Under the pieces are notes generated by a model. That model did no database searches, was not told the DNA's origin, and saw only the letters and a list, made by a program, of their open reading frames with translations. A program made the position numbers and the translations under genes. This document shows, one piece after another, positions 10,080 to 64,000 of a stretch of DNA of 64,000 bases (position 1 is its first letter; each line of letters starts with the position of its first letter). Source of the DNA: Polytrichum commune (taxonomy: Eukaryota; Streptophyta; Polytrichopsida; Polytrichales; Polytrichaceae); assembly GCA_950295325.1 (NCBI GenBank), contig OX485807.1, positions 31,589,666-31,653,665 on the forward strand, read 5' to 3'.

Positions 10080-10285
10080 ATTTTGCAAGTTAGAACAAGC
10101 AAGCAATCTCAGCAACAAGCAAGCAAGCAATCTCAACAACAAGCAACCTCGGGAGCAAGCTTTGGAAGCGTCCGAATTAGCAGGATTTTGTGGAAGAATC
10201 GTTTTTGCGAAGGAAGAAGCGGTGGGGTTTGAAGCAGGGGTGGAGGTTGGAGTTTGAGGTTTGGGGTTAGGATTTGGGGGAAGAG
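10080..10285 (+). promoter_or_regulatory. Probable SUFB leader with CAAGCAAG repeats
   Basis: Directly upstream of the SUFB start lies a stretch with repeated CAAGCAAGCAATCTCA-like units (about 10097-10150) followed by a G-rich purine tract. Its position suggests 5' untranslated sequence. No TATA box is evident, which is common for plant housekeeping genes. Confidence 0.35.
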
Positions 10286-12359
10286 ATGGCGATGGTGTTG
10301 GAGGCGGGGATGGGGGTGGGGGCGATGGCGAGCAGGCATTCTGCTACGGCGTCACCCTCCTCAAGCTCGCCGTGCATGGTAGGCATGAAGGTGAATGCGA
10401 AGGGTATGCGAGGGGCCATGGTGAAGAAGCATGGGATGGGGTTAGTGCGGTGCGACATGGCAGAAGAGGGAGCATCAGCGGTGATGGAGAGGGCAAACAT
10501 GAAGGAGAAGGCTCCAAGTAGCGATGACACCATACAGCAGTTTCTGAAACGGGATTACAAGTATGGGTTTGTGAGCGACATTGAATCCGTGTCCATTCCC
10601 AAGGGTTTATCAGAGGAGACAGTCCGGCTTATCTCAGCCAAGAAGAAGGAGCCGGACTGGATGTTGCAATTTCGGTTGAATGCGTACCGGCAGTGGTTGA
10701 AGATGAAGGAGCCCATGTGGAGTGATAATCATTACCCGGCCATTGATTTCCAGGACATGTGCTATTACACGGAACCCAAGCAGAAGGAAAAGAAGCAGAG
10801 CTTGGATGAGGTTGATCCGGACCTTTTGGAGACTTTTGCTAAGCTTGGAATTCCTCTGAGTGAGCAGAAACGTTTGACTAATGTGGCAGTGGATGCTGTG
10901 TTTGATAGTGTTTCCATTGCAACCACCCATAGGAAAACTTTGATGGCTGCAGGAGTGATTTTCTGCTCCATCTCTGAAGCCATCCACGATTATCCTGAGC
11001 TTGTGAAGAAATATCTTGGGAAGGTGGTGCCTGTGGCGGATAATTACTATGCTGCTTTGAATTCTGCCGTTTTCAGCGATGGGTCATTCTGTTATGTGCC
11101 CAAGGATACTGTCTCCCCCATGGAGATTTCGACTTACTTTAGAATTAATGCCATGGAGACAGGGCAATTTGAGAGAACCCTAATTGTTTGTGACGATAAT
11201 GCTTTTGTGAGCTACCTGGAAGGATGCACAGCTCCTTCATATGACAAGAACCAGCTACATGCAGCAGTTGTGGAGTTGTACTGTGCTTCCGGTGCGGAGA
11301 TTAAGTATTCAACTGTACAGAATTGGTATGCTGGTGACGAGAATGGTAAAGGTGGAATTTACAATTTCGTCACCAAGAGAGGGTTGTGCGATGGTGCAAA
11401 GTCTAAAATCTCTTGGACTCAAGTGGAAACAGGGTCAGCGATCACTTGGAAATACCCTAGTGTTGTGTTAAAAGGGGATAACTCAATTGGGGAGTTCTAT
11501 TCAGTTGCTCTTACCAACAATAAACAACAAGCAGACACTGGGACAAAAATGATTCATGTGGGCAAGAACACACGTAGTCGGATCGTTTCAAAAGGTATTT
11601 CGGCCGGGAAATCAGTGAATTGCTACAGAGGCCTTGTGCAGGTTTGTTTCTTTACCCACTTGTATTATTTTACCCGTAGGAGCTTACTTTGATGATTGAT
11701 TGAGCTCAAATCATAGCAAGGTAGAAATGCTAGAAGCTGTCATAGTTTGTATTCATATTATATATACATCTATACATTTACATATGTGCCTCTTGATCAT
11801 GAATTTGTTCATATGTTTTGCGAGGTTCTACTGGATCTCAATGGAATTGACATTGGGGGATGAATGAGGCTGGGAGGTAGGATTTTTGTGTTTAGGTGTA
11901 AGACTGAACATCGGGTATCTGAGTGCAGGTTCAACCATCAGCACATAATGCCAGGAATTTCTCGCAGTGTGACTCTATGCTAATTGGAGATCAAGCTGGA
12001 GCAAATACATATCCTTACATCACGGTATGCATCCTTGCATCAATTTTGTTTTGCCTTGATCATCTTCTAATTTTTTTTTAAAGTGCTTGTTGTGTGTCTG
12101 CATTCTCAGATTGAGACTCACAAGTGTTTGGTGTGTTCAGGTGAAGGATCCATCAGCTCGAGTAGAGCATGAAGCAAGTACTTCAAAGATTGGTGAGGAT
12201 CAATTATTTTATTTCCAACAAAGAGGAGTGGATGCAGAGAAGGCAGTTGCAGCTATTATTGGAGGATTTTGCAGGGAAGTATTCAAGGAGCTCCCTCTTG
12301 AGTTTGCTGCTGAGGTGAACCAGTTAATGAGCCTGAAATTGGAGGGCAGCGTTGGTTAA
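10286..12359 (+). CDS. SUFB: SufB, plastid Fe-S cluster scaffold subunit
   Basis: Three exons (10286-11641, 11929-12024, 12141-12359), all phase 0, give 556 residues, the usual length of chloroplast SUFB (ABCI8). I start at ATG 10286; the TTG twelve bases upstream is not a plant start. The first ~90 residues are Ala/Ser/Met-rich with few acids, as expected of a transit peptide. The SufB core follows: [71 protein letters not shown] and CYRGLVQ. Cys466 in SQCDSMLIG and His494-Glu495 in [16 protein letters not shown] correspond to conserved SufB residues that in bacteria act in cluster assembly with SufC and SufD. The product should work in the stroma in the SufBCD complex that builds Fe-S clusters for photosynthetic proteins. 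The gene looks intact. Confidence 0.97.
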
Positions 12360-18479: not shown

Positions 18480-19164
18480 TTCTTCCCACAATCAAATCCA
18501 CGACCACACTACCCTCTCAAATCCACGAGATTGCGCATTCCAACTACATTGGCTTTGTGTTGCTTGCGTCGATGCACAATGTTCAAAGACCAATTTAGAC
18601 GAACCGGCACTACTTGCTTCCAACTTTGAGGACTAAGATGAAAGACCAAAGAAAAATGAATGTCAGGGCTAGAGGCTTCCAGGTGAACACAAAACAAAGA
18701 GCAACCAATGAACAACAAGAAGGCAAGGAATACGAAGCGAGGAGGCAAGAAGTTGAGAAGTCGAGAATACGAGAACCGCAAAGTGCGAAATTTTTTATGA
18801 AATTGGTTTGCAAGATTCATGAAGTTGCTAGAGGTAAAGGTCCACTATAATGAAATTGAGGTGTGCCACATGACAAGCCGGTTTAAGAAGAATCATGAAA
18901 TAATTTAGAAGGCTCATGGAATCGGTAGAACACTTGGTCTACGACGACCCTAAAACATTGGATGATAGTGGAGAGGTACCCAAAACCGAATTCAATGGTT
19001 TGCGGTTCAATTCTTGGTCATGAAATCTTCTCTCTACTTGACGAAAAAACTAGCCAGGTGGTCACGCACTTCATGTGTTCCAAAAGGAAAAAATTAAATA
19101 AAAATTAGTAAAACACTTTGGTAACATTGGTTGGAAGGTTTATGAACTAGCTTGGAATCGTCAT
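18480..19164 (+). repeat. Dispersed repeat family X, SINE-interrupted copy
   Basis: This stretch is the inverted counterpart of 63480-64000. Shared blocks include ACATTGGCTTTGTGTTGCTT, TAGAGGCTT, TTCATGAAGTTGCTAGAG, GGTGTGCCACATGACAAG and ACATTGGTTGGAAGG. The 63-kb copy lacks the segment 18938-19108 because that is a later SINE insertion. The repeat has no clear coding capacity and its full extent lies outside the window on the second copy. Confidence 0.7.
18938..19108 (+). mobile_element. tRNA-derived SINE, copy 2
   Basis: It contains TAGTGGAGAGG (A box), GGTTCAATTCT (diverged B box) and the family 3' block GAAATCTTCTCTCTACTTGA, then an A-rich tail. Near-identical flanks GTAGAACACTTGG (18925-18937) and GTAAAACACTTTGG (19109-19122) are the target duplication. 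The uninterrupted copy of the host repeat at 63.5 kb confirms the insertion. Confidence 0.8.
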
Positions 19165-19519: not shown

Positions 19520-19909
19520 ATACACTAAATATGATATGTAGTGTCATATGGCAATTAATGTCCCTATGGTAACTTTTCGGACGACACGTCTTATGAATAA
19601 GTGAACCAATATTGTCATGGATGATGGACAAGTTCGTCCATTGGCCAAAAACCCTACCTTCTCTCGTCAGCAACTTGTGACAAAATAGTGTCATGGATGA
19701 TTGAAATTTGGATGAAAAAACACTTGGTAAGTTACAGTAAATGTAACGCAATAAATCTAGAATCCCCCCCCCCCAAAAAAAAAACCACAACGAATGACAA
19801 CTAATGTTGGGTTCACATTTAGTGTTGGTGACACTACACCGCAGTTCACAATCAGTATTGCGCAACACAATCAGAAATTGGTGATACTAAGCATGATGTT
19901 TAGTGGAGC
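19520..19909. mobile_element. MITE family A, copy 1
   Basis: About 390 bp, co-linear with copies at 27450-27859 and 33174-33565. The ends are inverted versions of CTACACTAAATAT..TTTAGTGTCA, diverged in this copy. Shared internal blocks include GTCATATGGCAATTAATGTC, GATTGAAATTTGGATGAAAA and CACTTGGTAAGT. There is no coding capacity; the long minus-strand open frame crossing it and the SINE is a composite artefact. Confidence 0.75.
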
Positions 19910-33173: not shown

Positions 33174-33565
33174 CTACACTAAATATGATATTTAGTGTCA
33201 TATGGCAATTAATGTCCCTATGGTAACTTTTCAGATGACACTTCTTATGATGAAGTGAACAAATACTGCCATGGACGATGGATGAGTTCATCCATTGGCC
33301 AAAACCCGACCTTCTCTTGTCAACAACTTGTGATGAAATAGTGTCATGGGTGATTGAAATTTGGATGAAAAACCACTTGGTAAGTGATAGTTTCTGTAAT
33401 TGCAAACTTCTAACTCTCTAATCCCCCAATTTTGTTTACAAGGAATAACAAATAATGTGGGGTTACCATTTAGTGTTGGTGACACAATACCGCGGTTTAC
33501 AATGAGTATAGAGCAAGACAATTAGAATTGGTGACACTAATAATAAGTACCATAATGTAGTGTAG
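33174..33565. mobile_element. MITE family A, copy 3
   Basis: The left end CTACACTAAATATGATATTT and the right end ...GTAGTGTAG are inverted. The interior is nearly co-linear with 19520-19909 and shares GTCATATGGCAATTAATGTC. It lies about 150 bp upstream of the putative promoter of the dioxygenase gene and so could contribute regulatory sequence. Confidence 0.75.
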
Positions 33566-33719: not shown

Positions 33720-34655
33720 GAACTTATAAAATGCGAGCGCCGCACGTAGTCGTCTTGCTCTAACTAGTATCACTCCTCCGCGCTCGCATTCTCCCACTTC
33801 TCTCCTAAATCCCTCCCTGGTATCGGAGTACTTATACACGCTCACTCCCTTGGAAGGGATTGACTCACTCACCACCACGATTCTCCCTCGTATTCGTCAA
33901 CTTGGAACCGCTGTCTGCAAGCATCAGCCAGTTCACTAGTCACTGATCACCAGACATCTCCGCACCTTCCTTGCAGCTTGCTTCCGGCTACTTCCTTCCT
34001 TCGTATCCTGCCGTCAGGAGAACTTGCGAGATTGCGGTTGTGAGTTGACCTGGGTCCTGGTCGGGCTTGACTTCACCCTCAAGCTTTCATACCCAATTCT
34101 GTACCATGCGAGATTAGTTTAGAGCTGCTTCCGACTCCTAAGTTACTGTGACGATCATCAGAAGGTGCGGTGAAGTTGCTTCACCCCCGTGACGGTTGTT
34201 GGCGAGTGATCGAGATCAGTTGGTGCGGAGGGTTGACTGGACCCTTATTCTGTGGTAGTAAGTAAAGTGAGTTCGGACGTGATGAATGTGCGAAGGGGTC
34301 GCAATGTACAGAGAGTTGCGGCGATAAATTCGTAGGACGGCGGGGATCACTTTACCCGTTGCTGCAGCTGGAAGAGTTAAAAGTGACACGTAAGGCTGAT
34401 TGATTTTTGACTGAAGAATTGTCAACTAGGGCGTCGTGTGCGAAACAGCATCAACATAGCGAGCGGAGCAGCTGCTGATCATCCTGTACTAGTCGGAGCA
34501 GCTAGGTTACCTCGTAGTAGCTGAGCAGTTGTTGCGGACCATCACTCCAACGTCAGAGGCGAAGTTGGATTTATTCGAGGCAGCGATCAGGTGATCCTCA
34601 TCGTCGTCAACAGTAGGCAGAGAGGGCAGTTGGAAGAAGAGCTGTATTTCGATCC
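33720..34655 (+). promoter_or_regulatory. Candidate promoter and long leader of dioxygenase gene
   Basis: TATAAAA at 33725-33731 follows a C/T-rich tract and precedes GC-richer sequence, a typical core promoter arrangement. If transcription starts about 30 bp downstream, the leader is around 900 nt before ATG 34656. It may hold an intron, though none could be fixed. No other gene is visible in this interval. Confidence 0.35.
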
Positions 34656-36326
34656 ATGGCTATGACTGCGAGGCACAATGCTGCAGACCTGGCCGCAGTG
34701 TTGGGAAGCGCCAACACGACGCTCCGAAACGCAGGTCTGCTGTCAGCGCTCTTGCACAACTCGCAGCAGCTGCCTGCGATGTTCATCGATGCAGGCGAGA
34801 AGCAACGACCCGCTCTCAATGACTTCAAACTCTCGTCGTCTGCAAGTGAAAGGAGTAACCAAAGTGTCCAAATCCCGGTGATTGACCTGGAGTTGATGAA
34901 GTCTGATAACCCTGCGGTGCGTGCGGCGCTGGTGCGGTCAGTCTCCGAGGCTTGTGAGAAGTTTGGGTTCTTCCAGGTGGTGAATCACGGTGTTGACCAG
35001 AACTTGGTGCAGAAGTGTGAGAAGGAAGCGCACAGGATGTTCGAGCTTCCACTTGACGTGAAGGAGAGGGTGCACCGGCCGCCTGGAACCTCATTTGGGT
35101 ACGGTGCCAACACTTGGGTTAACCAGACTGTCATGCACTGGGCTGAGAGTTTCCACATGCAGCTTCACCCTACTTCCAACATTCGAGACTTCTCCGGGAA
35201 GCTCTTCACTGAAGATGATGCGTCCCAATTCAGGTACATGCATACATAAGTCACTCATTCCTCAAAATGAACTGTAAACAACAAATCTGGAACCGCAAGG
35301 AGGAGGATCTGCTATACAGATTCTTCCTTTTAAGCAAGCAGCAATAGGGTCACCTGTTTCTCCGAGTCTGAGTGTTATGTCAGAGGCAATGGAGTTTGTT
35401 TCCTGTTGTGAGGTCGAAGTTTCGAGGGGACTGGTGATGATGCATTGGAGATAATTGTTTTGTTTCGGAGGAATGTGTGTTGAGGATGCATCACTGACAA
35501 TGTTTAGTGATTGCATTTGCAGCTCGACAGTGGAGGAGTACATGGCAGAGATCGAGAGGCTGGCACGGCAGCTGCTAGAGCTTCTCACCGAAGGGCTAGG
35601 TCTGGAACCCACGCGCTTCAATCACTACGTGGACGAAGATAGGATGATGTCCATGCGCTTTAACCTATACCCGCCATGCCCGCAACCGGAGCTCGCCATC
35701 GGCTTGCGTGCACACACCGACCCCCACCTCCTCACCATCCTCCACCAGGACGAGATTGCAGGTCTGCAAGTGCACATTGATGACGAATGGGTCACCGTGA
35801 AGCCCCGCCCTGACTGCTTCGTCATCAACATCGGAGACCTCTTCCAAGTAAGAATTTCTGCCCCGTTTGCAGATTCTGTGGAAGTTATGGATTCTCATTC
35901 TGCAAACATGATGTCTGTGTGTGTGCTCTTTGTCATCAACATCGGCGCGCTCTTTTCTTAAGTAAGAATTTTTTTTCAGTTGCATACACTTGGGGATTTT
36001 GTAGAAGTTATGGGTTATCATTATTGTGTGTGTGTGTGATCTGACTATGTTTTTGTTTTCCGTTTTTGCAGGTTTTGAGCAATACAAGGTACAAGAGTGT
36101 GCTTCACAGAGCAGCAGTGAACAGCAGTTCGATGAGACTGTCCCTAGCGTGTTTCCTTAACCCACCTTTGAGTGCCACAGTGGAAGCTCCCCCGGAGCTC
36201 ATCACCGAGGAGAGGCCACAAGTGTACCGACCCTTCACATGGCTGGAGTATCTATCGAATGCTTACAAATTCCACCCGGCTAATGGAGGGGAGAGACATG
36301 AGCGATTCTTCCTGGCTCAGAGATGA
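34656..36326 (+). CDS. 2-oxoglutarate/Fe(II) dioxygenase, gibberellin-oxidase class
   Basis: Three exons (34656-35233, 35523-35847, 36072-36326) join in phase to 385 residues, the normal size for plant DOXC-class dioxygenases. The N-terminal DIOX_N part (VQIPVIDLELM, SEACEKFGFFQVVNHGVDQ) precedes the jelly-roll core. Ligands are visible: NLYPPCPQPELAIGLRAHTD gives His257 and Asp259, LSNTRYKSVLHRAAVNSS gives His313, and RLS at 323-325 is the 2-oxoglutarate-binding Arg-x-Ser. LTILHQDEIAGLQVHIDDEW is closest, from memory, to GA20-oxidases. It should be a soluble hydroxylase acting on a small molecule such as a gibberellin precursor or another diterpenoid, but the substrate cannot be set from sequence. 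Start ATG 34656 has a good plant context (CCATGGC). Intron 2 carries a partial duplicate of the exon 2 end. Confidence 0.9.
35819..36040 (+). repeat. Tandem duplication across exon 2 splice donor
   Basis: TTCGTCATCAACATCGG plus the following donor GTAAGAATTT (35819-35857) recurs as TTTGTCATCAACATCGG...GTAAGAATTT from 35929, and similarity continues through GGAAGTTATGG...GTGTGTG. The intron therefore contains a decayed second copy of the exon end and its donor. The first copy stays open for 37 codons if the intron is retained. Confidence 0.8.
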
Positions 36327-42509: not shown

Positions 42510-43041
42510 ATCTTAGTACATTGTTAATGATATTTAGTGTTACATGCACAATAATGTCATTGACCCTATTTTGAGGCGTGTGTTAGGTTATAATTAATTA
42601 TCAACAACTTCAACATTAATGTCACCTTATGACACTTGGCATTTAAGTGTGCTTACTACAGCTTGGCATGAGTATGTTTAGTAGTGTTATAAAGTGTGTG
42701 CCTATGTTACATAATGGTCTACAAGTTGACTAAAGTGTATACAAATGACACTTGGCATTAGTATGCTCAACATTGTTTTCCTTTTGCATACGAACATGTA
42801 ACCATATGACACTTGCCATTACAATAGTATGCTCAGTAATGTCTTCCCCTTGCACACTAAAACGTAGAACTATCATCTCAAGTATCCCAATGTGCTATGC
42901 TAAATGTCATAATGTTAATATTTTTCACATGAAAAACCTTCTTTTGTTGACATATAATATCATATTGGCAATTAACGAACATGACACTTTGAGACCTCTA
43001 AGCATCTAGTTTAAGTCCTTTGTAGATAATGTGTATGACAC
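42510..43041. mobile_element. MITE family B, left part of a split copy
   Basis: This segment is the inverted homologue of 29261-29786 nearly end to end. It stops at TGTGTATGACAC (43030-43041), and the missing terminus (TAAATATC...GTGTAGAC) continues at 56378, after the retrotransposon. The two parts together make one family B element. Confidence 0.8.
43030..43041 (+). repeat. Left target-site duplication of the retrotransposon
   Basis: TGTGTATGACAC is repeated perfectly at 56366-56377. Both lie within family B MITE sequence and define the ends of the 13.3-kb insertion. Confidence 0.93.
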
Positions 43042-44446
43042 GGGGGGAGATGGCCGGAGGCGGAGCTCTCGACTCGCAGCAGCGCCGCGCAGCCTCAACC
43101 ATAGAGCAACGGAAAGAAACCCTCGGCAAGCAACAGAACAACACCAAGCACAACCGCACCACACCGAGCACAGAAGCGCAGAGTCCCTCATCGAACTTGC
43201 AGAGTTTGAGTTCTACATCTACGCCAAGCATCGACACCAACAAAGAAGGGGCACAGAAGCATCACACACAACGAGATCTACACCAAAGGAAGAAGCAGAT
43301 CTCGCGCATCACCAAACTCAGAACCAACCGATGCGGCACAACCTGGAAACAATGCTTTACTTTCCTCAAAGTGTTATACACATTACTTTACATCAACCAA
43401 ATCTCCACACCTCTGAAGTTTCACCCCTGCGGCCTCACCTCTCCTGCCCCTACCCATCAACTACCCGCTGTAAGTGTCTGTGCTACCCTACCCCGACACC
43501 ACAAACGCTCCCCCGCAAGACCGCCAGCACCAGCGTCAACACCATGGAGCAGCTGCGGCTCCCAGGAACACCTCCGACCGCACAGCCTCAACTCACCACC
43601 CACCAGATCCGCTTCTTCCGCCAACTCAGAAGTCAGAGCGCACACCGCCCACACCACACACACCCACAACGATGAATCAGCGACAACCAAACTCACAGAA
43701 AGGTACATTGCAACTCTAAACCCTGACTCTCCTCCACATCTCAACACACACCATTCCGAAATGCCTCACAACGATCCACAGTCCACACAATGCCACTCCA
43801 CACGCAAAAACACCCAATGCCCCCTACACAATACTCAGACACGCAAAGACCTCAGACTGAGCTACAAACAGAAATATTCACTTACCTTACACAACCATCC
43901 GCCGCCGGCCGCCTCCCACGATCATACACCCACACATACACAACTCCTGTCGCGAATGATCACCCCCAGCACAGTCCCGCATTCTCCATCCGGTTTCACC
44001 CACTCATCCCTTACCGAACAGACGCCATGCCCGCCACACAAGCACATCCCAGCCCCTATCGAACAGACCCCCCCCCCAAACGAAAAAACTCACCCCCAAC
44101 AAGGAAGAACCAGAGACCACCGAACCCACACAAAGACACGCTGCTTCCCTAAACCCTGGATCCCCCCCTCTCACCATACTACATGTCGAAACACCTAGCA
44201 GACACACGCAGACACCCTGCCACTCCACACAAACAACGCACAATGCCCTCCACACAAAGGCCATAGCTGGAATCCCACACAGAAAAACTCACTTACCTTG
44301 TCCAGTCAACAGTCGCAGGCCGCCTCCATCGAACTTACAACCACACTGTCGCCATAGAAGTCGCGAACGGCTACCTCCAACACAGCCCAACACTCTTCAT
44401 CCGGCTCCACCCACCAAGCCCCTCCAGAACAGACACAATCCCCACC
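43042..44446 (+). other. A+C-rich 5' region of the retrotransposon
   Basis: Two overlapping frames are open here (frame 43029-44198 and frame 43031-43675), but both contain only low-complexity Pro/Thr/His/Ser sequence, and the first begins in the flanking MITE. With so little T, stop codons are rare by chance. I regard this as 5' untranslated or weakly coding sequence holding the internal promoter expected of a LINE. Confidence 0.5.
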
Positions 44447-47400
44447 ATGTCAACACAACCCAGCTCCAATCGAACAGACTCCCCCCCCGAAACTCCATCA
44501 CACACACACCATCTAAACTTCTACTATCTATACCCCAAAATACCCCTACCCCCACAGAAAACCCTTACACAGAACAAACAACAATACCACACAATCCCAA
44601 TCACGCCCTACTACCAACCTGCAACCCTACCCCGGCACCAGCCAGCTCACAATATTGCCATTCCCACTGCACCTGAGTTACCAAACAAACTAAAGATACC
44701 ATCTACCCAAAGAAAACCACACACAAACAAACCCCCCAGGCTGCCGCCCCAAAAACCATATGCCACCAAAAGCAACGCAGCAACACATACACACACCAAG
44801 TCAGAATTAAACCCTTCACACCCTGTACCTCCCAAAAAACGCTATCAAACAGCCACCCAGACAAACACCGCCAAACATCAACTACACAGACACACCCACA
44901 TTAACAATCAACTAATCCTACTTAAATCACACACCCACAAGCTCACAATCACTCAACAATCCACCTACTTGCTCATCCCCTCACACTGCCCACTCTCCTC
45001 ACTGCTCCCTCACACTCCCAAACTTCACACTCCTCTCCCCCACTCATTGCTCAAACATTCCACCAGTATTGCGACACCACTCCCGCCTCTCCTCACCATC
45101 TCCCCCCTCTGCCGCCTTCCTTCTAGACACAGCACTGACATTCCTCACAAGCACTCACCATCCACAATCACTCTAGATCCCTACTCCAAACTCCATCCCC
45201 GACTGGACACTACAAGCTACTCGGCATTTCGACCTCGGATACAGCATGCTACAGCAGAAGTGAAGACAAGACATCCACTGGCCCATGCTCGAAGCACCCC
45301 ACCGCCAGTTACAACAGCTCCGATCTCTCGCACAGCACCGAACGCTGCACTCCTGCAACCCACAGCGCACCACACACCCAACAGAGCCAGCACCGAGACA
45401 CCTACATACAGCTCCGAAGCTCCGGCACACCACCAAGCTACTGTGTGCCGAATTGGAGCCAGCACTGCGACGCCTACATCCAGCTCCGAATTTCCTGCAC
45501 ACCATCAAGAGATCGTGAGTCGACAATTCGACGCTGCCACCAGACCTGACCACAGTCACAAGGTACGCCCCATTCCTATCCACCCACACCCTTCCAACAC
45601 TCCGATCATCCCCACCAAACTCACACAGTGGCCAAACTCATGCAGACTCGCAAGCATAACAGGACAGACACCAGCAGCCGATCGCCACCAAGCGACCCAC
45701 AATCAATCCCCGGTTTGCTTCCCCAGACCACCACAGAATCAGCACAAGGAGCCACACCATCCAGGAAGCCGCGCAACCACTACACCCAACCTACAGCACC
45801 GAAACCAACACTACAGGCTGCAGCACCAGACTCTACCACCTGCAACTCCTCAACCCGCACCACCATCAAGACAATACCCACAACTACAACGTCGCACCAG
45901 CACCCACAACAATCCCAGCTCCCGACTCCCCACCAGCCTTACTCAAGATCAACAGCGAATTCCCCCGGATCAAGTAGGTAATCCCTGGCCCAAGCACCCG
46001 TTTCTCATGGAACACGCCAATCACTCCACAGGTACCAAGCAGCCGACATCACTCAACGACCAATACATGGAATTTCGCCAACAAGTCCTATCACAGCCGC
46101 CAATCCCACACCCGTCCCAGCTCTCGAATCTCGCACCACATGCCAATCAACCTCATGAGTTTGACGCCGAGGAGGACCTTGACATGGACGCGCAACTCGA
46201 GAACGTGTCCCCGGAACACGGAGGGAGCTCACTTCAATTAACATTTGATCGTACCTCACAACAAGCCGCCCATGCACCTCCCAACAACTCTTCACTCCAC
46301 ATCGAAAGCACACCTCCGACGCTCCATTACCGCAACCCTCGACTTGAAGACGTCTCGGAGAGCCAATCCACCAAACGGAGGAAGGCCGACGACTACACCG
46401 CCACCTCAACACCCGACGTCTCACACAAGCCCACCCCAACACCACCTAGCGTGCGAGCAAGGCGGATGGCCACCCTTAGCATCGACATGGCCGGACACAT
46501 GTGGCTCGGATTTCCAATGCATGAGGCATTAGCCATCCTACGTGGGAAGAAAGAATTGAAGGAGACACGTACCGATGAGGAGTTTGCCAACATCGGCACA
46601 CCCACCAATGAGATACAAGAATTTCGATCGCTACGAAGAGCATTCCCGAGAACCAAGCAATTCCTCTACCCCAACGAGCGTCCGGATGCGGTAACCGGAC
46701 AACACTTACACTTCACTCAAATCCCTATGTACGAGAAGACGTCCCAAGATACGGGCCTCACCGAAGGATTCCACGTCACCATCCGTTTTGATGGAGAATA
46801 CAAAAAACTCAACCGGAAAGAAGTCAAAACCGCATGCCTAGACCGACTCCGGATCATGAATATGCCTCTCGGATCCGCCTACTCCAACCCGATCGACATT
46901 GGCATCAACACGGTTACACGGAATTGGAGTGGGTTTGTCAAAATTCACCTCCAATTCCCCAAGAGAGACGGGCTAGCACTACTCCGCGGTGAAAGGGCCT
47001 TCGTCATGACAATGGGAGACGGAGTGAAGGTCATTGGGAAAGTGGAGAAAGGTTTTGAGCTCATTACCAAGGCAAAGAACATGAGGTTACATCTTAAGGG
47101 CGAAGCACTCCGCAACCACACGGCATTAGACATTCTCCGAAGCCTCATGAAGGATTTCTACTACGACGGGCGCGAAGTGGAAATCCTTTCCCTCACCAAG
47201 TCGGAGACGGAGCGGGATTTCGCCTTCATCACACTCACCACCGAGGAATCGAAGAATGACATCCTCACCAACGGGCTCACCTTTCATTTCAAAAAACTTA
47301 AGGTAAGCATCACAAGGGACAAGGACATGAGCAATCCTTCGGAATTAAAGATTAGTACCACACTTGTGGCCAATAACCTACCCCAACGCGAGTCCCAATC

Positions 47401-49231
47401 CACGATCACCGCAACACTCAAGAGGCTATTTGGCGAGGAGAACATCACCGGTGTCACCTTTGGCCACAAGACCGACCTCACCAACGACCGGCAAGCCGGG
47501 TGGTGCCATGTACAATGCCTCAATGCGGCGGTGTATACGGAGTGGCTACATAAGTCCGCATACGTACTAGGTAGGCGAGTGGACTTCGTACCACACAAAG
47601 GAAGCATAGATGGCACCGCACCAAACCAAACCGCCATTCGACTTGCACAAGCCCCCGTACGTGAGGTCCTCGCTCAAAAAGCCCAAGCAATGCACAACAC
47701 CGCCGCATCATCCCCGCTAGTCTCGGAGAAACTCTTCTCAAAGGCAATGAAGGAACTTGCCGAGACCATGGATGACAAGCTCACCACACTCACACACAAC
47801 ATCAACCACAATACGGACCTACGCATTGAGGCTTCCACGGACACGCTCAAGACTCATGCAACCAACATCCACAACATAATGAGTGCCATGGCGATGGAGT
47901 TCCAACAATCGAACAACCGCATGCACAACATAATGCAAACCTTGGCCGCCACCTCACCGGACCCCCCCCCCCCCCCCACACCAACATCGCAAGACTCCCA
48001 TCCGCACCAAGCACCTCCCTCACCACCACACATGCGGGAGACACTAACATGCCACAACAAGCTCCACCGGGTTTCCATAGTGTTCCCCTTAGAAACTCCC
48101 CATCAAGTTTCCACAAAGGTCAATATCCTCTTCATGAATAGGCTAGCCATAGTATACGCATGGTCGATAGTCATACATATCTTTTGTACTACCTATTTCT
48201 TTATTATAAATAAAATGTTTGCTCCTCCACCTATCATAATTACTCCACTTGCCTCATACACCAACACCCCTAGGCTTAAACACATAACAAAAAGACATCA
48301 CTCACACTCCAACAAATACAAAGACTTATACAACCAAAGTCGTACAATATCACACCACAAAATACTAATAAACAACACACAATCACACAATGCTCACACT
48401 ATACCTCACAAAACCATACTACCCACCCCACCCCAAGCTCACACCTTAATCATCCTCCTCACCCTCTCATTAGCATACGCCCATCACCACGTCTCAACCA
48501 TACATACGACAACACTACCCACAACACACCTAAACCCACCATATCAAACAAACCCCCACACCTACACCACCACTCCACACCACAACCTCTACCACCCCCA
48601 TAACGTACAAAACTCCACCTCAAGTACAACATTAAAACACCAAGCTAATCACAAATCTCCAATCACCTACACATACTACAACCATACACACGACCCACAA
48701 CACCTCACCCAACACCTACCCCAAACAAATACACCCCCCATCCCCCCCATCCCACCCATCCAACCCACCCATCCAACCCTCACACCCAATGCATCAATAA
48801 CATTTGTCCACTACAACACACCAATCCCACACTACACACCAAATGAAATAATACACCCAAACCACACACACCAACCTTATCATAAATCCACAACCACCTC
48901 CCCACACCACGACAACCCACATATCAAACAACACCTCACCCAACACATGCCTCATACAATCCTACCCCCTCTCATCCCACCCATTCAACCTATCATATAC
49001 ATATGTAGCATCCTCCACCTCACACACATACACCAAAAAACTCCTAAAACAAAACTCAAAAAATATTATATATGGAATAATACCACACTCATAACCCTTA
49101 GTGGGGACATTGAATCCAACCCTGGACCTATGCCCGACCTCCTAAACACACACCCCCCGACCACAAAAGAAGACAAACGACATATTTCATACCGAATACA
49201 ATCAAACTCCAACCCGAATACCAACACCTAG
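44447..49231 (+). CDS. Retrotransposon ORF1 region with C-terminal 2A motif
   Basis: The open frame is 1594 codons. Residues 1 to about 660 are Pro/Thr/Ser/His/Gln-rich and low in complexity; the true start may lie anywhere within them. Residues about 664-1090 change character to a normal globular protein (ARRMATLSIDMAGHMWLGFP, SGFVKIHLQFPKRDGLALLR, GWCHVQCLNAAVYTEWLH), which I read as RRM-like modules of an ORF1 nucleic-acid-binding protein. About 1130-1185 may be a coiled coil, followed by a poly-Pro run from a C16 tract. Residues about 1226-1258 form a hydrophobic, membrane-like segment, then comes a second low-complexity stretch. GDIESNPGP at 1553-1561 is a 2A motif. The frame ends 33 codons later, while another frame stays open. 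Confidence 0.75.
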   Translation: MSTQPSSNRTDSPPETPSHTHHLNFYYLYPKIPLPPQKTLTQNKQQYHTIPITPYYQPATLPRHQPAHNIAIPTAPELPNKLKIPSTQRKPHTNKPPRLPPQKPYATKSNAATHTHTKSELNPSHPVPPKKRYQTATQTNTAKHQLHRHTHINNQLILLKSHTHKLTITQQSTYLLIPSHCPLSSLLPHTPKLHTPLPHSLLKHSTSIATPLPPLLTISPLCRLPSRHSTDIPHKHSPSTITLDPYSKLHPRLDTTSYSAFRPRIQHATAEVKTRHPLAHARSTPPPVTTAPISRTAPNAALLQPTAHHTPNRASTETPTYSSEAPAHHQATVCRIGASTATPTSSSEFPAHHQEIVSRQFDAATRPDHSHKVRPIPIHPHPSNTPIIPTKLTQWPNSCRLASITGQTPAADRHQATHNQSPVCFPRPPQNQHKEPHHPGSRATTTPNLQHRNQHYRLQHQTLPPATPQPAPPSRQYPQLQRRTSTHNNPSSRLPTSLTQDQQRIPPDQVGNPWPKHPFLMEHANHSTGTKQPTSLNDQYMEFRQQVLSQPPIPHPSQLSNLAPHANQPHEFDAEEDLDMDAQLENVSPEHGGSSLQLTFDRTSQQAAHAPPNNSSLHIESTPPTLHYRNPRLEDVSESQSTKRRKADDYTATSTPDVSHKPTPTPPSVRARRMATLSIDMAGHMWLGFPMHEALAILRGKKELKETRTDEEFANIGTPTNEIQEFRSLRRAFPRTKQFLYPNERPDAVTGQHLHFTQIPMYEKTSQDTGLTEGFHVTIRFDGEYKKLNRKEVKTACLDRLRIMNMPLGSAYSNPIDIGINTVTRNWSGFVKIHLQFPKRDGLALLRGERAFVMTMGDGVKVIGKVEKGFELITKAKNMRLHLKGEALRNHTALDILRSLMKDFYYDGREVEILSLTKSETERDFAFITLTTEESKNDILTNGLTFHFKKLKVSITRDKDMSNPSELKISTTLVANNLPQRESQSTITATLKRLFGEENITGVTFGHKTDLTNDRQAGWCHVQCLNAAVYTEWLHKSAYVLGRRVDFVPHKGSIDGTAPNQTAIRLAQAPVREVLAQKAQAMHNTAASSPLVSEKLFSKAMKELAETMDDKLTTLTHNINHNTDLRIEASTDTLKTHATNIHNIMSAMAMEFQQSNNRMHNIMQTLAATSPDPPPPPTPTSQDSHPHQAPPSPPHMRETLTCHNKLHRVSIVFPLETPHQVSTKVNILFMNRLAIVYAWSIVIHIFCTTYFFIINKMFAPPPIIITPLASYTNTPRLKHITKRHHSHSNKYKDLYNQSRTISHHKILINNTQSHNAHTIPHKTILPTPPQAHTLIILLTLSLAYAHHHVSTIHTTTLPTTHLNPPYQTNPHTYTTTPHHNLYHPHNVQNSTSSTTLKHQANHKSPITYTYYNHTHDPQHLTQHLPQTNTPPIPPIPPIQPTHPTLTPNASITFVHYNTPIPHYTPNEIIHPNHTHQPYHKSTTTSPHHDNPHIKQHLTQHMPHTILPPLIPPIQPIIYICSILHLTHIHQKTPKTKLKKYYIWNNTTLITLSGDIESNPGPMPDLLNTHPPTTKEDKRHISYRIQSNSNPNTNT
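49103..49129 (+). other. 2A ribosome-skipping (StopGo) motif
   Basis: The codons spell GDIESNPGP, an exact fit to the 2A consensus D-(V/I)-E-x-N-P-G-P, preceded by TTLITLS. In known 2A peptides the ribosome fails to form the Gly-Pro bond and continues, releasing two proteins from one frame. Here the break would fall between ORF1 and the enzymatic polyprotein. 2A motifs are known in some animal and trypanosome non-LTR elements. Confidence 0.85.
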
Positions 49232-52200
49232 CCAAAACATTTCAACCCTTTTTTCAAGCATCACACCCACTACATGCACAAACAATACTCTCGCTCCCAT
49301 ACCTATACCAATATATACAAACACACGTAAATCACCCCCCACCACGAATCATTTACGCATTAATTACAACGATTAGCCCATCCATAGAAATATGTAACAC
49401 ATACCTACAACTACCGCCACCTCAAGATTGGACATCCCAACTACTAGAAACAATGACAACACTAACAAACCCTCCCGAAAGACATATATACACCCCGCAC
49501 CCATACACACAATTTCGCAACATATATAAAGACATAATAACACCACCCAACACCATACATAAAAAACTATACGACTACATGCATCTAAATCCCAACACAC
49601 TTACCATTCAAAACATGAGTGAGGCATTCCCATACTTACCAAGACAATTACTAATAGAAGCATTAAGATACAAAGAACCCATAAATGAATACACACACTC
49701 CAACCCCCCTCCGACACAAAGTCTACCTTCATCAACTAGCCTACCCCCGCTAACAAGCCAAGAATCATATGCTATCACATGGAACGCCTCCTCTCTTAAC
49801 ACCGCCATGCCTTGCCTACAAGACCTAATCATTAATCCCCAAAGACCACCCTCAATTATCGCCATACAAGAAACTAAGTTATCCGCCACCAAATCCACCA
49901 ACCATATCCAAAGATTATTCCTACAATACAAACTTTTCTTTAACAACACACATAACATCACAAGGGTCACACGCCAAAGAATGCCCTATAGAGGTTATAG
50001 AGGTGGCCTACTACTACTAATTCACAAAATACACGCATTTCCAGGTAACCTATCTAAAATCCCTACGCCCGCCGATATATCCCCATTCCTCCAAATCAAT
50101 CACATAGCAAACCAACCTTTGCAACCTTGGCTCCTAATCAATCTAAACATGCCCTCACATGAGGAGGATATTCCTCTTATCCTTCTCATACAAAATACCA
50201 TAACTAACCAAATAAACCTACACCCTAATCACACATATATACTATGTGGAGATTTTAATAGAGACGTCGCCCTAATTGGTAGGCAAAACGACCTACAAAC
50301 AACACCCCCACAACCGGAGGATCATATATGGCGGTCTTTTACAACCAACCTAGAATTATCCTACATCCCGACAAATACCACATTCTCAAGACAAGGAGGA
50401 CAAAACTATACACAACATAGTTTAATTGACGGCTTCTTCATCAAAACCCCCAACAACAACCAATACACCTCTATTACAAACCAAAATATTCAATTAAATT
50501 CCGGCCATTTTCCCATACACTTACAAATCCCCCCAAACACACTTATTGCCAAAGACCCACTTACAACTCCCGAACCTCCGCCTAGGATACTCAATCCCAT
50601 ACCAAAGGAGAACCTAGACGAATTCCGCACAAAATTCTTTGAAAGAAACTCCAACCAAATCGACGAACTTACACAACTCCTACAAAATAACCAATTGACA
50701 AGCGAACAATGGCAATTAGCTTGCAACTCATTTGACACACTCACCGACAACATCACCACTACTGTCCTAGAAACATGTAGTGCCACACCCATACCCACAC
50801 TTCCACCCCATATCGCTAAACAAGGCGAATATCTACCAAAGAAATCCCAAACGCAATGGAAACTACACTTATCTACCTACCACCTAATCCGTAAGACAAT
50901 ATATATCATAAAAAACAACCCGAATTGGCGCGCCCATCCCATTGTCACTCATGAATTAATCAACCACACTCACACTACTCTACCCCCACCACCTGACCCA
51001 TCACTAGAATACAACTCATGGATCGCTACACTAGCCACAATAGCAAAGGAAGCTAAACACAAAGCCCGGAAAATCACGAGTGACTATACTAACACACAAA
51101 TCAAAAAAACCATATCCAAATACCAACAATTATACGATAAGAGCCCCAAGAAAATCAACCGAAAAATCTTCAAAAGCAATGACAATCCCTCACTAGACTG
51201 TCTCATAGATAGATACGACAACATCCTCACAAACCCGAACAATATCGCACAATAACTACATATCCAACAATCAATTAGTAATCGACCCACCGTACCAACA
51301 TGCTACTATCAACCTGGCCACACACCACAATGCCTATGCGGAGTTAGACAATATCCGTGGCACGACTTGAATGGGTACACCATTGAAAAAAGAGGAGACG
51401 CGTTAATTCCCTTGCATACATATCTTGACCAAGAGACATATGACATATGCCTTAAAAACTTGGCCAATGGAAAAATTCCCGGACCTGATAAAATACCCAA
51501 TGCCATCTTGAAGGACATGCCCCCAAGATTCCACAAATTGCTTTTATTATTCTTCAAACATTGTTATAAGCAAAAACAAATCCCCGAATCTTGGAAAACA
51601 AGTCTCACAATACTTTTATACAAAAAGGAAAACCCCCACGACCTTATTAATCATAGACCCATAGCACTCGCTAATACAATTTATAAACTATTCACTAGCA
51701 CACTTACAAGTATCCTCTCCGCATACGGAGAAAAACACCAAATCCTACATGATAGTCAAGAGGGCTTTCGAGCCGAAAGATGCACCGCCCGACAATTACA
51801 AACCATAATCGCCGCATTAGAAGATGCACGATTCATCAACCAAGACATTTACATTCTCTACATTGATTTTAAAAATGCATTTGGATCTATTGACCACGCT
51901 AGACTCCTTGCTATTATGAAGGACCTAGGATACCCACTAGACGCGGTGGCCCTAGTCGGCAATATTTACGCACAGTCCACTACTACATTTACCGGAGAAC
52001 ATTTCGGCAAGACCCAACCTATACCCATACAACAAGGGACTATCCAAGGATATACATTAAGCCCGTACCTTTTTATCATCTTCCTTGAACCACTCCTTAG
52101 GTGGTTACAAAGGGGAAATAACGGCTACACCCTTAATACCTCAAATACCACACTAAACTCTGCAGCTTATGCCGACGACCTAGCAGTAATTTCCAACAAC

Positions 52201-52779
52201 CTAACCTCCCTCCAACTCCAACTAAACAAACTCGATAAATATTGCGACTGGGCAGGCATGGATCTTAGCATCTCCAAATGTGCCGTCACCGGATGCCCTA
52301 ACCAATCAAAACTTAGCCCCCAAGCCTTCAAAACGCATCTCAAAAACGCTAATATCAATTTCCGGGACCAACTCATCCCTACCCTAAGTCAACACGAACC
52401 ATATGTCTACCTAGGCATCAACTTAGTTCCATCACTACAATGGAAAATACAAACACACATAACAACCACCAAACTAACCCAACAATGCAAATTACTAACT
52501 TTATGTCCAGCCACTATGAAGCAAAAAATACAAATGATTGATACCGTCATACGAGCCGGCATTGCCTATAGTTTTTACGCGGTCCCCTATTCATTCCCCG
52601 CCATTAAAAAACTTGATAAAAAAATAATTGCCCTACACAAAATTATTTGTGGTCTCCCAAAATGTATGTCAAACGCGGTTACACAACTCCCCCAAGCTAT
52701 GTTTGGCATGGAAGCATTCTCATTAAAAAAATGCTTACACCACATGCATCGGAGAACAACTCATAAATGCCCTCAATGA
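49129..52779 (+). CDS. Retrotransposon APE endonuclease and reverse transcriptase
   Basis: The frame is open from 49129, though the first ATG is 49453, and is interrupted only by TAA at 51253-51255. The endonuclease shows AITWNASSL, IAIQETKLS, LCGDFNRD, LIDGFF and SGHFPIHL, the catalytic order of AP-type LINE endonucleases; the usual SDH is SGH here. The reverse transcriptase follows (about 51460-52300): GKIPGPDKIPNAIL, NHRPIALANTIYKLF, DSQEGFRAERCTARQLQTI, ILYIDFKNAFGSIDH, QGYTLSPYLF and AAYADDLAVIS, so both catalytic Asp blocks are intact. The upstream protein enters this frame from the 2A frame through a 1-nt shift near 49190-49215. The frame is lost at the A7 run 52728-52734. Confidence 0.9.
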
Positions 52780-53902
52780 CAAAGGAAGACTCGGGAAAAT
52801 ATACAATGGATTAACAAACTACATACTAACCAAACATGGCGGATCGCTAAACCTACCCCGCATAACCCAACACGATTGCATAAGATCGCCAATCACAAGA
52901 ACCCTCTACCTACTAAAAACAACTAGCGGAGCCCTTTTAAAAAGCACACTAGAAAAATTTCCCCTCCTTCCCACCCCCCTCGAAACACAATGGATGCAAC
53001 AAGCACAACATATCCCAACATTAACCCCTACAACCTCTCTAAAATATCTACATAAACTAATACTACACAACATAACCGAGCTCAAACATATAACCCACTC
53101 CAACGGCACACAATTAATGACCAATGACGAATTCAAGACTCACTATGTCACACCCACTAAAACAACTAAAGCCGCCTTAAACCAAGCCCGAATACTCTTT
53201 TGCGAACCACCATGCCCAAACCAATGCCCGAACACCCTTAAAGATGCATACAAAATACCAAATCGACATATAAATATAAGAACTAGTAACCACAACCTAC
53301 ACCCCCCACCGCCGCCGCCTCCACCCAAATACCCAAAACCACCACCGCACATCCTAAAAAACTACACACAATTCCCACTACACTCCATAATCAAGGACCA
53401 TTCACATACCTGCAAAGACAAAAACAAAATTACCAAAGAATATACATCCTATCTATGCCAATGGATACTCCCGAACGAATCAATATACAACAAATGGCTC
53501 ACTCAAAAAGACTTATTCCCTTGGGAGAGCCAAAATACCATAAACCATAACATATTATTACTAACACAATATTATACTCACAAACAAAATCAACACTTCA
53601 CCAACATTCTAAAATCTAACTTTGATGAAGCACAAACAAAAGACACAAGACACACTCCCCCTCCACAACTCATCCCTTTATGTCAAATCAATATTGGTGA
53701 ATGTAACCCCGATAATGACATCGCATGTACCCAACCCACCATCCAAAGCCAACATGGCGCATCACATATTTATGACGAGGATGGGCGCCATATAATTACC
53801 ATCCCGGAGCAAAGATTACAATGGTTATGGGAACAATATCAAAACGCACTCCCCCAATCGCACAATTTAGAACCCCCACACAATCCTTTGAAAAGGAAGT
53901 AA
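52735..53902 (+). CDS. Retrotransposon thumb/connection segment (shifted frame)
   Basis: After the A7 run the coding sense continues one frame over with CIGEQLINALNDKGRLGKIY and TRTLYLLKTTSGALLKS. It then runs through a Pro-rich patch (53302-53345) to GRHIITIPEQRLQWLWEQY before a stop at 53902. The segment connects the reverse transcriptase to RNase H and is not separately recognisable. The open frame's own ATG at 52994 is internal and not a real start. It overlaps the next frame because a second slip occurs in the C-rich stretch 53848-53880. Confidence 0.65.
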
Positions 53903-56130
53903 TATGGTTGTACCAACGGTACAAATATAGAATGCCTAAAAACGACCCTCTTAAACTCTCCCACTACACACTACCACATGCCATCCTTGAACACATCATT
54001 GACTCTTTCCAAATCACACACTCACATTTTTCATCCCCCGTAACATGCCCCACATCACTTAGACAATTCTCCTCCCCATTCCTTAGAGATAAAGTCTTTG
54101 GGTCTATAGGAAAAGCCTTCCAACATAAATGGATCGGGAATGGCTATGCCCACCCTCACTCCGAACAAGACATCCAACAAGCCCTCCATTGGGCACGACT
54201 TGCAGCTCAAAACGACCCAGATACAATAACAATACTCATAAACACCGACCCCAATTGGTACCACAACCTATATCCCCATAATGGTCCTTTTTCGGATTCA
54301 CACGTCATCACACTTTTTAAAGCCGATACCATTACATATGACGAACCCACAATACCACCCGAATTACAAATCGAACCCCGAATAGAAAGCCGCGACATTC
54401 AAGTATTATGCATACACCACAAAACCTCCCCTCCTAGGCCAATAAACTATACATGCCAAATGGACATCATTGGCGCCACACTACAAATACCCACCATATT
54501 CACCACAAACGCACCACCAACACCACCTAATACCATAGTAAATCGAAGTAAGAAATGGTCCCAACTCGCATACCCTCCTTCCCCACCGCCGATCCAAATT
54601 ACCAATATCCCCCTACTCACTAACCACAACATATGCCTACCCCTCAAATACCAACCGCAATTTTGCTATTATACAGATGGATCATTTATACCCCCCAAAG
54701 CAATAACCCAAGAACATTGGCGGCGAGAAAAAGCAGGGTATGGCATATACAACCCTTTCAAAAATCTCAAAATTGCGGAAAGACTACCCAGACTCCAGAA
54801 CATTTTAAGAGCAGATCTCATGGCTATACACCACACCCTCCGCCTTCTTACAACCACATATCATAATGAACCCGCGCATATTTTCACAGATTGTCTTAAT
54901 GTCTTATATCTCATAAATACACAAACAAAACACCCTACCATACACAATAGTCACCCAGACAAGAAAATACTCGAATCCATAGTAAAAATGCTACAAGCCC
55001 GCACACAAACCACCACACTTCATAAAGTCAAAGCCCACACGAACATTAGCGGCAACGAGCAAGCGGATAAATTAGCCAAAATGGGATGTGAATTAATACA
55101 TAGAGATGCACTAGCAACACACGAACATGCACATCCCACCCCCTATTATTTCCACAAAACGTGGTGGCACTCAATGCAAGACACACCCGATAAAGGTCCC
55201 ATACGACACCTTGGAAAATACATCCTTAAATACGACAAAAAGCACAACCTAACAATTATGGCATCCCAAACACACCAACTACACAAATGGCTTGACAACA
55301 AAGACATTGACAAACCACTATCAAATGCTTTTTGGAACAACCCGGTTATCACCGATAAACAAAAAACATGCCTAGTAAAATTTAGAACTGGCCAATATAT
55401 GGGACATGCCAGGAAACAACTTTTCTTTGGTAGAACCGCATATCCATCCCACACATGCCCTATCTGTAACTCATCCGAAGCAGATACATGGCTACATGTA
55501 CTCCTTAAGTGTAAACAACAACACATTCACGCACTAATCACAAATAGACATAACAAAGCGGTATGGGAAATCCGTAAACTTCTCATTTCAAACAAAATCA
55601 CTCGATATTTTACACTTATGAACGCAGGAACACACAACGATTCCCCACAAGAAAATACAGTACCTACATGGCTACTACCATGCACATGCGACACCCAACG
55701 ATGTCATTGCAATGCTCGACTCAAACCCGACATATTATGTGTCATCGGTCATCCATATAATACCCCACCACCAGAAGCACCCACACAAGCAGTCACAATA
55801 CAATACATAGAATTCACATATTGTAACGACAGGTTCTCGGCCGAAACACTCAAAAGAAAAACCACGAAATATCAACCACTTCTTAACAACCTCATTACAA
55901 GAGGATGGAAGGTTGCCCCACTCATAGTACTAGCTTCCGGCGCTAGGGCCACAACTCATATCCCTTCGATGAAGGCACTAGAGACACAACTCAAACTCCC
56001 CACATCACAAATCAAGCACACATTTCAACAAATCAACACAATCGCCATACAATATGCACACTCAATACTAATCCACAAAAGACGGATAGAAAATAAGCAA
56101 CCTATCAATAATCTACAAAACCTTACTTAA
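53821..56130 (+). CDS. Retrotransposon RNase H, CCHC knuckle and restriction-like endonuclease
   Basis: In 769 codons three domains are visible. RNase H spans about residues 280-420: CYYTDGSF, LRADLMAIHHTL, IFTDCLNVLYLI and HKVKAHTNISGNEQADKLAK; the usual catalytic Glu of the second block is Asp. A zinc knuckle follows at about 543-563 (CPIC...H...C). The C-terminal part has LKPDILCVIGHP (about 632), IEFTYCNDRF (about 662), RKTTKYQPLL and RGWKVAPLIVL, matching my memory of the PD-(D/E)XK restriction-like endonuclease of RandI, R2-type and similar elements. The first ~30 codons are out-of-frame sequence; real coding joins from the preceding frame near 53875. The stop at 56128-56130 is the natural end. 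Confidence 0.85.
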   Translation: MVMGTISKRTPPIAQFRTPTQSFEKEVIWLYQRYKYRMPKNDPLKLSHYTLPHAILEHIIDSFQITHSHFSSPVTCPTSLRQFSSPFLRDKVFGSIGKAFQHKWIGNGYAHPHSEQDIQQALHWARLAAQNDPDTITILINTDPNWYHNLYPHNGPFSDSHVITLFKADTITYDEPTIPPELQIEPRIESRDIQVLCIHHKTSPPRPINYTCQMDIIGATLQIPTIFTTNAPPTPPNTIVNRSKKWSQLAYPPSPPPIQITNIPLLTNHNICLPLKYQPQFCYYTDGSFIPPKAITQEHWRREKAGYGIYNPFKNLKIAERLPRLQNILRADLMAIHHTLRLLTTTYHNEPAHIFTDCLNVLYLINTQTKHPTIHNSHPDKKILESIVKMLQARTQTTTLHKVKAHTNISGNEQADKLAKMGCELIHRDALATHEHAHPTPYYFHKTWWHSMQDTPDKGPIRHLGKYILKYDKKHNLTIMASQTHQLHKWLDNKDIDKPLSNAFWNNPVITDKQKTCLVKFRTGQYMGHARKQLFFGRTAYPSHTCPICNSSEADTWLHVLLKCKQQHIHALITNRHNKAVWEIRKLLISNKITRYFTLMNAGTHNDSPQENTVPTWLLPCTCDTQRCHCNARLKPDILCVIGHPYNTPPPEAPTQAVTIQYIEFTYCNDRFSAETLKRKTTKYQPLLNNLITRGWKVAPLIVLASGARATTHIPSMKALETQLKLPTSQIKHTFQQINTIAIQYAHSILIHKRRIENKQPINNLQNLT

Positions 56131-56365
56131 ATCTTTAAAAGTCCAACATACTCACCCCCTTAGCCCATTCCACCGGTTAACCCGGTATATTAAAAAAAAT
56201 AAAAATAAAAAAATCGTTACTTAACATAGTATCTACTCCCTGAAAAGGGTGAAGTAGTAGTACACCCAACGCCATTACCCTGGGGTGTGGCTTAGGATGT
56301 CCTATGAACAGATACTCTATTCACTCCGGCCCTAAACGGGACCGGAGTTCTTCTTCTTCTTCTTC
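56131..56365 (+). other. Retrotransposon 3' UTR with terminal stem-loop and (TTC)6
   Basis: After an A-rich stretch a stem CTACT...AGTAG encloses CCC...GGG (about 56230-56260). Immediately before the tail ACTCCGGCCC (56323-56332) pairs with GGG-A-CCGGAGT (56338-56348) around TAAAC. The element ends in six TTC units (56348-56365). A 3' hairpin beside a microsatellite tail is the kind of structure used by LINE reverse transcriptases to recognise their own RNA. Confidence 0.7.
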
Positions 56366-56399
56366 TGTGTATGACACTAAATATCAAAGATAGTGTAGA
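56366..56399. mobile_element. Right target duplication and MITE family B remnant
   Basis: TGTGTATGACAC (56366-56377) is the second target duplication, and TAAATATCAAAGATAGTGTAGAC completes the terminal repeat of the family B MITE begun at 42510. Confidence 0.85.
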
Positions 56400-63479: not shown

Positions 63480-64000
63480 TTTACAAAAGTTCTCTATGAA
63501 GGTTTCAAGCTACTTCATGAACCTTCCAACCACTGTTACCAAGGTGTTCTACCAATTTCATGAACCTTCCAACCAATGTTACCAAAGGGTTCTACCAATT
63601 TCATGAACCTTCTAAATTATTTCATGATTCTTTTGAACCAACTTGTCATGTGGCACACCTCACTTGCACTATAGTGCACCTTTATCTCTAGCAACTTCAT
63701 GAATCTTCCAAACCAATTTCATAAATATTCTTACACTGTGTGGTTTTTGTATTCTCAGCTTCTGCCTCCTCCTTCACATTCTTTCTCTTCTCGTTCTTCA
63801 TTGATTCCTCTTTGTTTGTGTTCATCCAAAAGCCTCTAGCCTTGACATCAATTATTCTTTGATCTTTCACTATAGTACCTCAAAGCCAGAAGCAAGCAAT
63901 GTTGGTTCTTCTAAATTGGTCATTGAACACTCTACATCGAAGCAAGCAACACAAAGCCAATGTAGTTGTAGTGCGCAATCTCATGGATTTGATTGTAGGA
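63480..64000 (-). repeat. Dispersed repeat family X, copy cut by window end
   Basis: Inverted homologue of 18480-19164 without the SINE: CTTCATGAACCTTCCAACCA, GGCACACCTCA, CTCTAGCAACTTCATGAATC, AAGCCTCTAGCC and CACAAAGCCAATGTAGTTG. Internally, CCAATTTCATGAACCTTC is repeated in tandem (63514-63612). The repeat continues past the window edge. Confidence 0.7.

Follow-up and report, generated by a model that had tools for sequence, protein, structure and literature searches.

The 64,000-nucleotide stretch of DNA analysed here (the window) carries on its + strand what is very probably a decayed, full-length copy of a dual-endonuclease long interspersed nuclear element (LINE), a retrotransposon without long terminal repeats (LTRs) that combines an AP-type endonuclease (APE) with a restriction-like endonuclease (RLE). 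The features recognized at the locus, including the reverse transcriptase (RT), the first open reading frame (ORF1) and the flanking target-site duplications, are as follows.

43030-43041, left target-site duplication TGTGTATGACAC, with an identical 12-mer at 56366-56377
43042-56365, + strand, very probably the full-length non-LTR retrotransposon, a decayed copy of 13,324 bp, delimited by target-site duplication, 3' tail and GC skew
46007-49129, + strand, ORF1 region, in frame into the 2A motif; the start ATG at 46007 was picked by eye
49103-49129, + strand, 2A/StopGo core motif GDIESNPGP, then M, from the sequence and its homologues
49774-50517, + strand, APE domain (PF03372, 7.4e-7; PF14529, 1.6e-5)
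51451-52728, + strand, RT (PF00078, RVT_1, 4.7e-29)
about 53872-54480, + strand, PCIF1/CAPAM-like methyltransferase-fold domain with NPPF replaced (PF12237)
54661-55089, + strand, RNase H (PF00075, 6.1e-14)
55456-55512, + strand, CCHC zinc knuckle, CX2CX9HX4C, from the sequence
55513-56112, + strand, RLE, with PD...E...KxxKY
56324-56347, + strand, 3' terminal hairpin, from the fold of 56236-56365
56348-56365, + strand, (TTC)6 3' tail, from the sequence
56366-56377, right target-site duplication TGTGTATGACAC, identical to 43030-43041

The pair of target-site duplications and the end formed by the hairpin and (TTC)6 are hallmarks of a single full-length target-primed insertion, and the limits of the element in the original prediction, 43042-56365, match the span between the duplications exactly. 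The motifs it quoted (CGDFN, LIDGFF, YADD and the KPDILC...RGWKV block) have all been found on the + strand in that interval; its list of parts stands for the APE, RT, RNase H, knuckle and RLE, the 2A motif and the PCIF1-like domain having been overlooked. The Pfam domains follow one another, 5' to 3', as AP-type endonuclease, RVT_1, PCIF1_WW and RNase_H. The sense strand is strongly C- and A-rich, its GC skew lying between -0.2 and -0.68 in bins of 2 kb from 42 to 56 kb. The last 130 nt (56236-56365) have a folding energy of -42.4 kcal/mol (z -2.1; 4 of 200 shuffles were equally good), and Rfam at gathering thresholds gave 0 matches.

Frame 2 stays open for 1654 codons, against a maximum of 449 in 200 local dinucleotide shuffles, so that this reading frame is not due to chance. 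It ends shortly after GDIESNPGP, the APE protein continuing in a changed frame; beyond that, the coding sequence is interrupted by a stop at 51253-51255 and changes frame near 52750 and again near 53850. Homologous proteins are open at all four places: 26 run from the 2A region into the APE, P0062 is a single open protein from the APE through the RT into thumb and linker, and P0001 (1289 aa), likewise a single open protein, spans the last two breaks, from the RT thumb over the PCIF1-like domain and RNase H to the RLE, and is 95% identical to the C-terminal query over 95% of that query. The breaks therefore reflect decay of the window copy which, judged from its sequence, is dead but young. Breaks between the parts are also what would be expected if two LINEs nested one in another had been misread as one element, but there is one pair of target-site duplications and one tail, and the intact, overlapping P0001 and P0062 cross the breaks; nesting was rejected as extremely improbable. 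In addition, P0064 (2A, APE and RT) and P0004 (thumb to the start of the RLE) probably lie on one contig, the longest contig of both being 13,377 bases.

On the APE, Exo_endo_phos (PF03372) reaches 7.4e-7 in Pfam, and PF14529, at 1.6e-5, falls just below its gathering score. Counts of conservation were made on 32 family proteins, the denominators being the proteins that cover each site. The catalytic residues are N in 26/26, E in 25/26, D in 29/29 and N in 28/29, and the further residues are similarly constant (D of IDGF 25/27, S 26/27, D 26/27, H 27/27). The RLE was identified by a structure model and fold comparison (VIA-align only), which gave a match to the RLE fold of R2; the core PD...E...KX2KY is present downstream of the CCHC knuckle, and PD, E and KxxKY are invariant in the 18 to 20 homologues that cover them. 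The knuckle itself is conserved in 23-24 of 25 homologues, with low model confidence in that part; its spacing, CX2CX9HX4C, compares with the CX2-3CX7-8HX4C given for RLE LINEs in a passage of PMC5678591. With both endonucleases conserved, neither appears vestigial. The central claim of the original prediction, that an APE and an RLE occur in one element, is thus borne out, for the first by Pfam and for the second by its fold and the conservation of PD, E and KxxKY; the absence of a PD-(D/E)XK fold from the C-terminal domain would have spoken against it, and the fold is there. Against the PDB the RT scores 98 bits with R2 and 56 bits with L1 ORF2p. The R2-group LINEs of solved structure (R2Bm, R2Tg and R2Pm) thus have the closest solved RT by score and share with the window element the linker, the zinc knuckle, the RLE fold and PD...E...KxxKY; they differ from it in that APE, RNase H and PCIF1-like domain are added here. 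R2 has no APE. Two other LINE proteins among those fetched have ubiquitin-related domains: P0107, a long protein in which a ubiquitin-hydrolase domain is combined with an RT and, by eye, an APE-like part, and P0110, an RLE-type protein whose RLE is followed by a ubiquitin-specific protease domain.

The frame of ORF1 is open from 44267, with an ATG at 44447 earlier than the one chosen. The ORF1 region has no convincing match in Pfam or in the PDB, and its core is matched by 0 of the 229 fetched proteins in BLASTP at E 1e-3; a likeness to RNA recognition motif (RRM) folds was seen by eye only and is not claimed. Between ORF1 and the 2A motif, window positions 48050-49100 form a C- and A-rich, stop-free linker of 1 kb, only the last part of which matches homologues (six). 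The DIESNPGP of the window agrees with the published 2A core, (D/G/C/N)(V/I)ExNPGP as given in a passage of PMC12846837. That core is found in 18 of the 26 homologues that cover the site, and the wider D[IVM][EHQ]xNPGP in 24 of the 26, three of these having two copies; the doubled motifs of P0065, P0066 and P0091 are spaced 159, 140 and 44 residues apart, respectively. By eye, the flanks of the window 2A are mixed, the upstream one being of one type and the downstream one of the other, a pattern that recombination between two motifs would give. Intact relatives would probably translate one long polyprotein, made up of the ORF1 protein, the 2A and a protein with APE, RT, PCIF1-like domain, RNase H, knuckle and RLE in that order; by skipping one peptide bond at the 2A, the ribosome would release ORF1p and ORF2p from one reading frame. 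The 2A-bearing LINEs named in a passage of PMC4981915, L1Tc of Trypanosoma and sea-urchin elements, have D(V/I)ExNPGP in a LINE polyprotein in common with the window family. The latter differs in having its 2A between ORF1 and ORF2, with two copies in some relatives, in its RLE and in a host that is probably a plant. A more distant APE LINE, P0113, has GGIEPNPGP near its N-terminus and is a further LINE with a 2A-like motif.

The PCIF1_WW model (PF12237) matches at 6.2e-9, over its gathering score, and at E up to 0.1 it hits all of the 34 members; when the homologue P0053 was compared by fold, PCIF1 made up the top six entries. Profile matches in the PDB are weak and to PCIF1 only (E 0.2; 0.016 and 0.059), appearing only with profiles that leave out the RNase H part; in PDB sequence searches with alignments A1 and A2, the entries listed were those of RNase H. 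The window domain shares the methyltransferase core fold and PF12237 with PCIF1/CAPAM, the cap m6Am methyltransferase, and differs in being part of a retrotransposon protein and in the replacement of the catalytic NPPF: human ANPPF is aligned opposite AHPH, which is well kept in homologues (A 41/42, H 40/42, P 39/41, H 38/41). Since the fold is kept and NPPF lost, binding to the capped 5' end of the element's RNA is a likelier role for the domain than methylation.

Several observations weigh against the reading of the element as a dual-endonuclease LINE with a working 2A. The structure model of the RLE, built with 22 homologues, has a mean pLDDT of 72, falling to ~53-56 around the zinc knuckle, and the profile-profile matches are modest (E 9e-5 and 1e-3, hhalign probabilities 59% and 21%). 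The GXW after strand 4 is lacking, the element having GAR without W where R2Tg has GARGKW. The E of the 2A core is replaced by H or Q in 6 of the 26 homologues, and two more, P0083 and P0088, have degenerate motifs. The aspartate of SDH in the APE, D in 26 of 27 homologues, and that of QGD in the RT, D in 6 of 6, are replaced in the window copy and, its frames also being broken, no activity can be deduced for that copy. Finally, no fetched protein covers both APE and RLE, in a search that limits candidate length; their linkage rests on the window, the overlapping proteins and the coinciding contigs of 13,377 bases. The missing GXW, and the lack of any Pfam match at E up to 10 to the C-terminal block (residues 560-784 of the last protein), would suit an ordinary APE-only LINE whose C-terminal domain is degenerate and not a nuclease, but the R2-like fold and the fully conserved RLE residues make that very improbable, and it was rejected.

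Relatives of the element are numerous. Protein sources were ena, jgi, lgn, eukprot and ncbi. With the RT profile, 972 proteins scored E 0.001 or better; the best 120 of them share 57% identity or more with the query and so belong to the window family; the APE-RT query found 55, about 34 of them of the window family and the rest other LINEs, and the C-terminal query 59. Scans of viral contigs and genome contigs with two alignments, A1 (C-terminal) and A5 (RT), confirmed no DNA loci of these relatives. Among the matches listed from open-licence literature, no title or abstract start describes the combination of APE, RLE, 2A and PCIF1-like domain.

The place of the family among LINEs was sought in two RT trees, the first of 34 rows (36 had been prepared; P0113 and P0114, with more than one motif match, were dropped) and the second of 29, after removal of P0110, P0107, P0112, P0104 and P0100 for long branches or long-branch joins; P0109, in which no YxDD-like motif was found, was never included. 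In the 29-row tree the window family is a clade of its own (100/100), and the L1 rows are united with P0102 at 96/94 with the family outside; the first tree has the same group without the family at 85/69, or at 97/96 with P0112 added, and likewise leaves the family's attachment unsupported. The RT thus does not fall firmly in an ordinary APE-only clade, a placement that would have told against the original prediction. In approximately unbiased (AU) tests, joining the family to the five L1 rows without P0102 is rejected (p-AU 0.003), and with P0102 it is not (0.071); a strong claim that a relation to L1 is rejected was withdrawn, because P0102, which groups with L1, had been outside that test. 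Also not rejected are unions of the family with the four RLE rows (0.50) and with P0092 (0.45). The best tree joins the family to P0093 without support (22/2), and the branch with the twelve L1 and other APE rows on one side and the window family on the other has a non-significant 67/72.

Two readings of this position compete. The first, which we put at only a little short of even, is that the element is a true member of the RandI/Dualen clade, known from Chlamydomonas and relatives, whose algal members would already have the PCIF1-like domain and the 2A, the host alone being new. APE and RLE in one element, RNase H and a short non-poly(A) 3' repeat are shared, all being reported for RandI/Dualen in passages of PMC4640811, PMC3636483 and PMC3747384, the first stating the RNase H domain and a table in the last giving a 3' repeat other than poly(A) for 8 of 8 RandI families; a passage of PMC12747079 reports LINE/Dualen in cryptophytes too. 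The window element differs in its plant host, its 2A and its PCIF1-like domain, the latter two going unmentioned in those passages on RandI; the comparison is by description only, no protein among the 229 fetched being named RandI or Dualen. The original prediction had proposed membership of this clade or sisterhood to it, and RandI/Dualen accordingly stands as a candidate clade name. The second reading, a tentative one that falls clearly below even, is of a separate lineage, convergent with Dualen, that arose when an RLE-type LINE gained an APE or an APE-type LINE an RLE. The separate RT clade with its unsupported attachment, the unrejected union with the four RLE rows and the higher RT score with R2 than with L1 all speak for it; against it, parsimony favours a single origin of the dual state, the tree has no RandI rows, and sisterhood to the APE rows is not rejected either, whether to L1 with P0102 (p 0.07) or to the six other APE rows (p 0.35).

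Elsewhere in the window, a plastid-type SufB gene, its coding stretch extended at the N-terminus (TIGR01980, 490 bits with a cut-off of 346), lies at 10271-11689, and a plant-type dioxygenase gene at 34617-35958 consists of DIOX_N and 2OG-Fe(II) oxygenase stretches with an intron-like gap between them. SufB with an N-terminal extension in DNA bearing introns points to a green plant. Of the "plant genome" first proposed, these genes uphold a photosynthetic eukaryote, and a land plant only probably. There are also direct repeats of ~225 nt at 19521-19746 and 33175-33399 (88-89% alike, 13.65 kb apart), candidates for old LTRs or for copies of a dispersed repeat, and inverted repeat pairs at 18517-18886 and 63633-63992, with arms 85-86% complementary and ~45 kb apart.

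As a member of its family, the element would spread by target-primed reverse transcription. One nuclease would nick the first strand, the RT would begin copying the RNA at its hairpin-(TTC)n end, and the copied template would be removed by RNase H; cleavage of the second strand may fall to the other nuclease. APE and RLE may thus divide the two strands between them, the APE, at a guess, taking the first and the RLE the second.

What appears to be new here over known dual-endonuclease LINEs is the 2A and the PCIF1-like domain. According to passages of PMC12846837, a 2026 survey, nothing indicates that plant viruses use StopGo, though StopGo works in plants, which makes a natural 2A here notable. 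In a passage of PMC4640811, the position of Dualen serves as an argument for the origin of L1 and other APE LINEs by replacement of the RLE by an APE, and the present combination could help to show how the two main DNA-cutting modes of LINEs are related. In a plant family of more than 100 related protein clusters with both active sites conserved, the roles of the two nucleases become testable. The cap-methyltransferase-like domain inside a LINE suggests a route by which full-length, capped RNA may be selected; tentatively, and with the chances rather against than for it, these elements may represent a diverse, undescribed clade of plant LINEs with two endonucleases, 2A skipping and a captured, NPPF-less cap-methyltransferase domain that would read the capped 5' end and so favour full-length copies.
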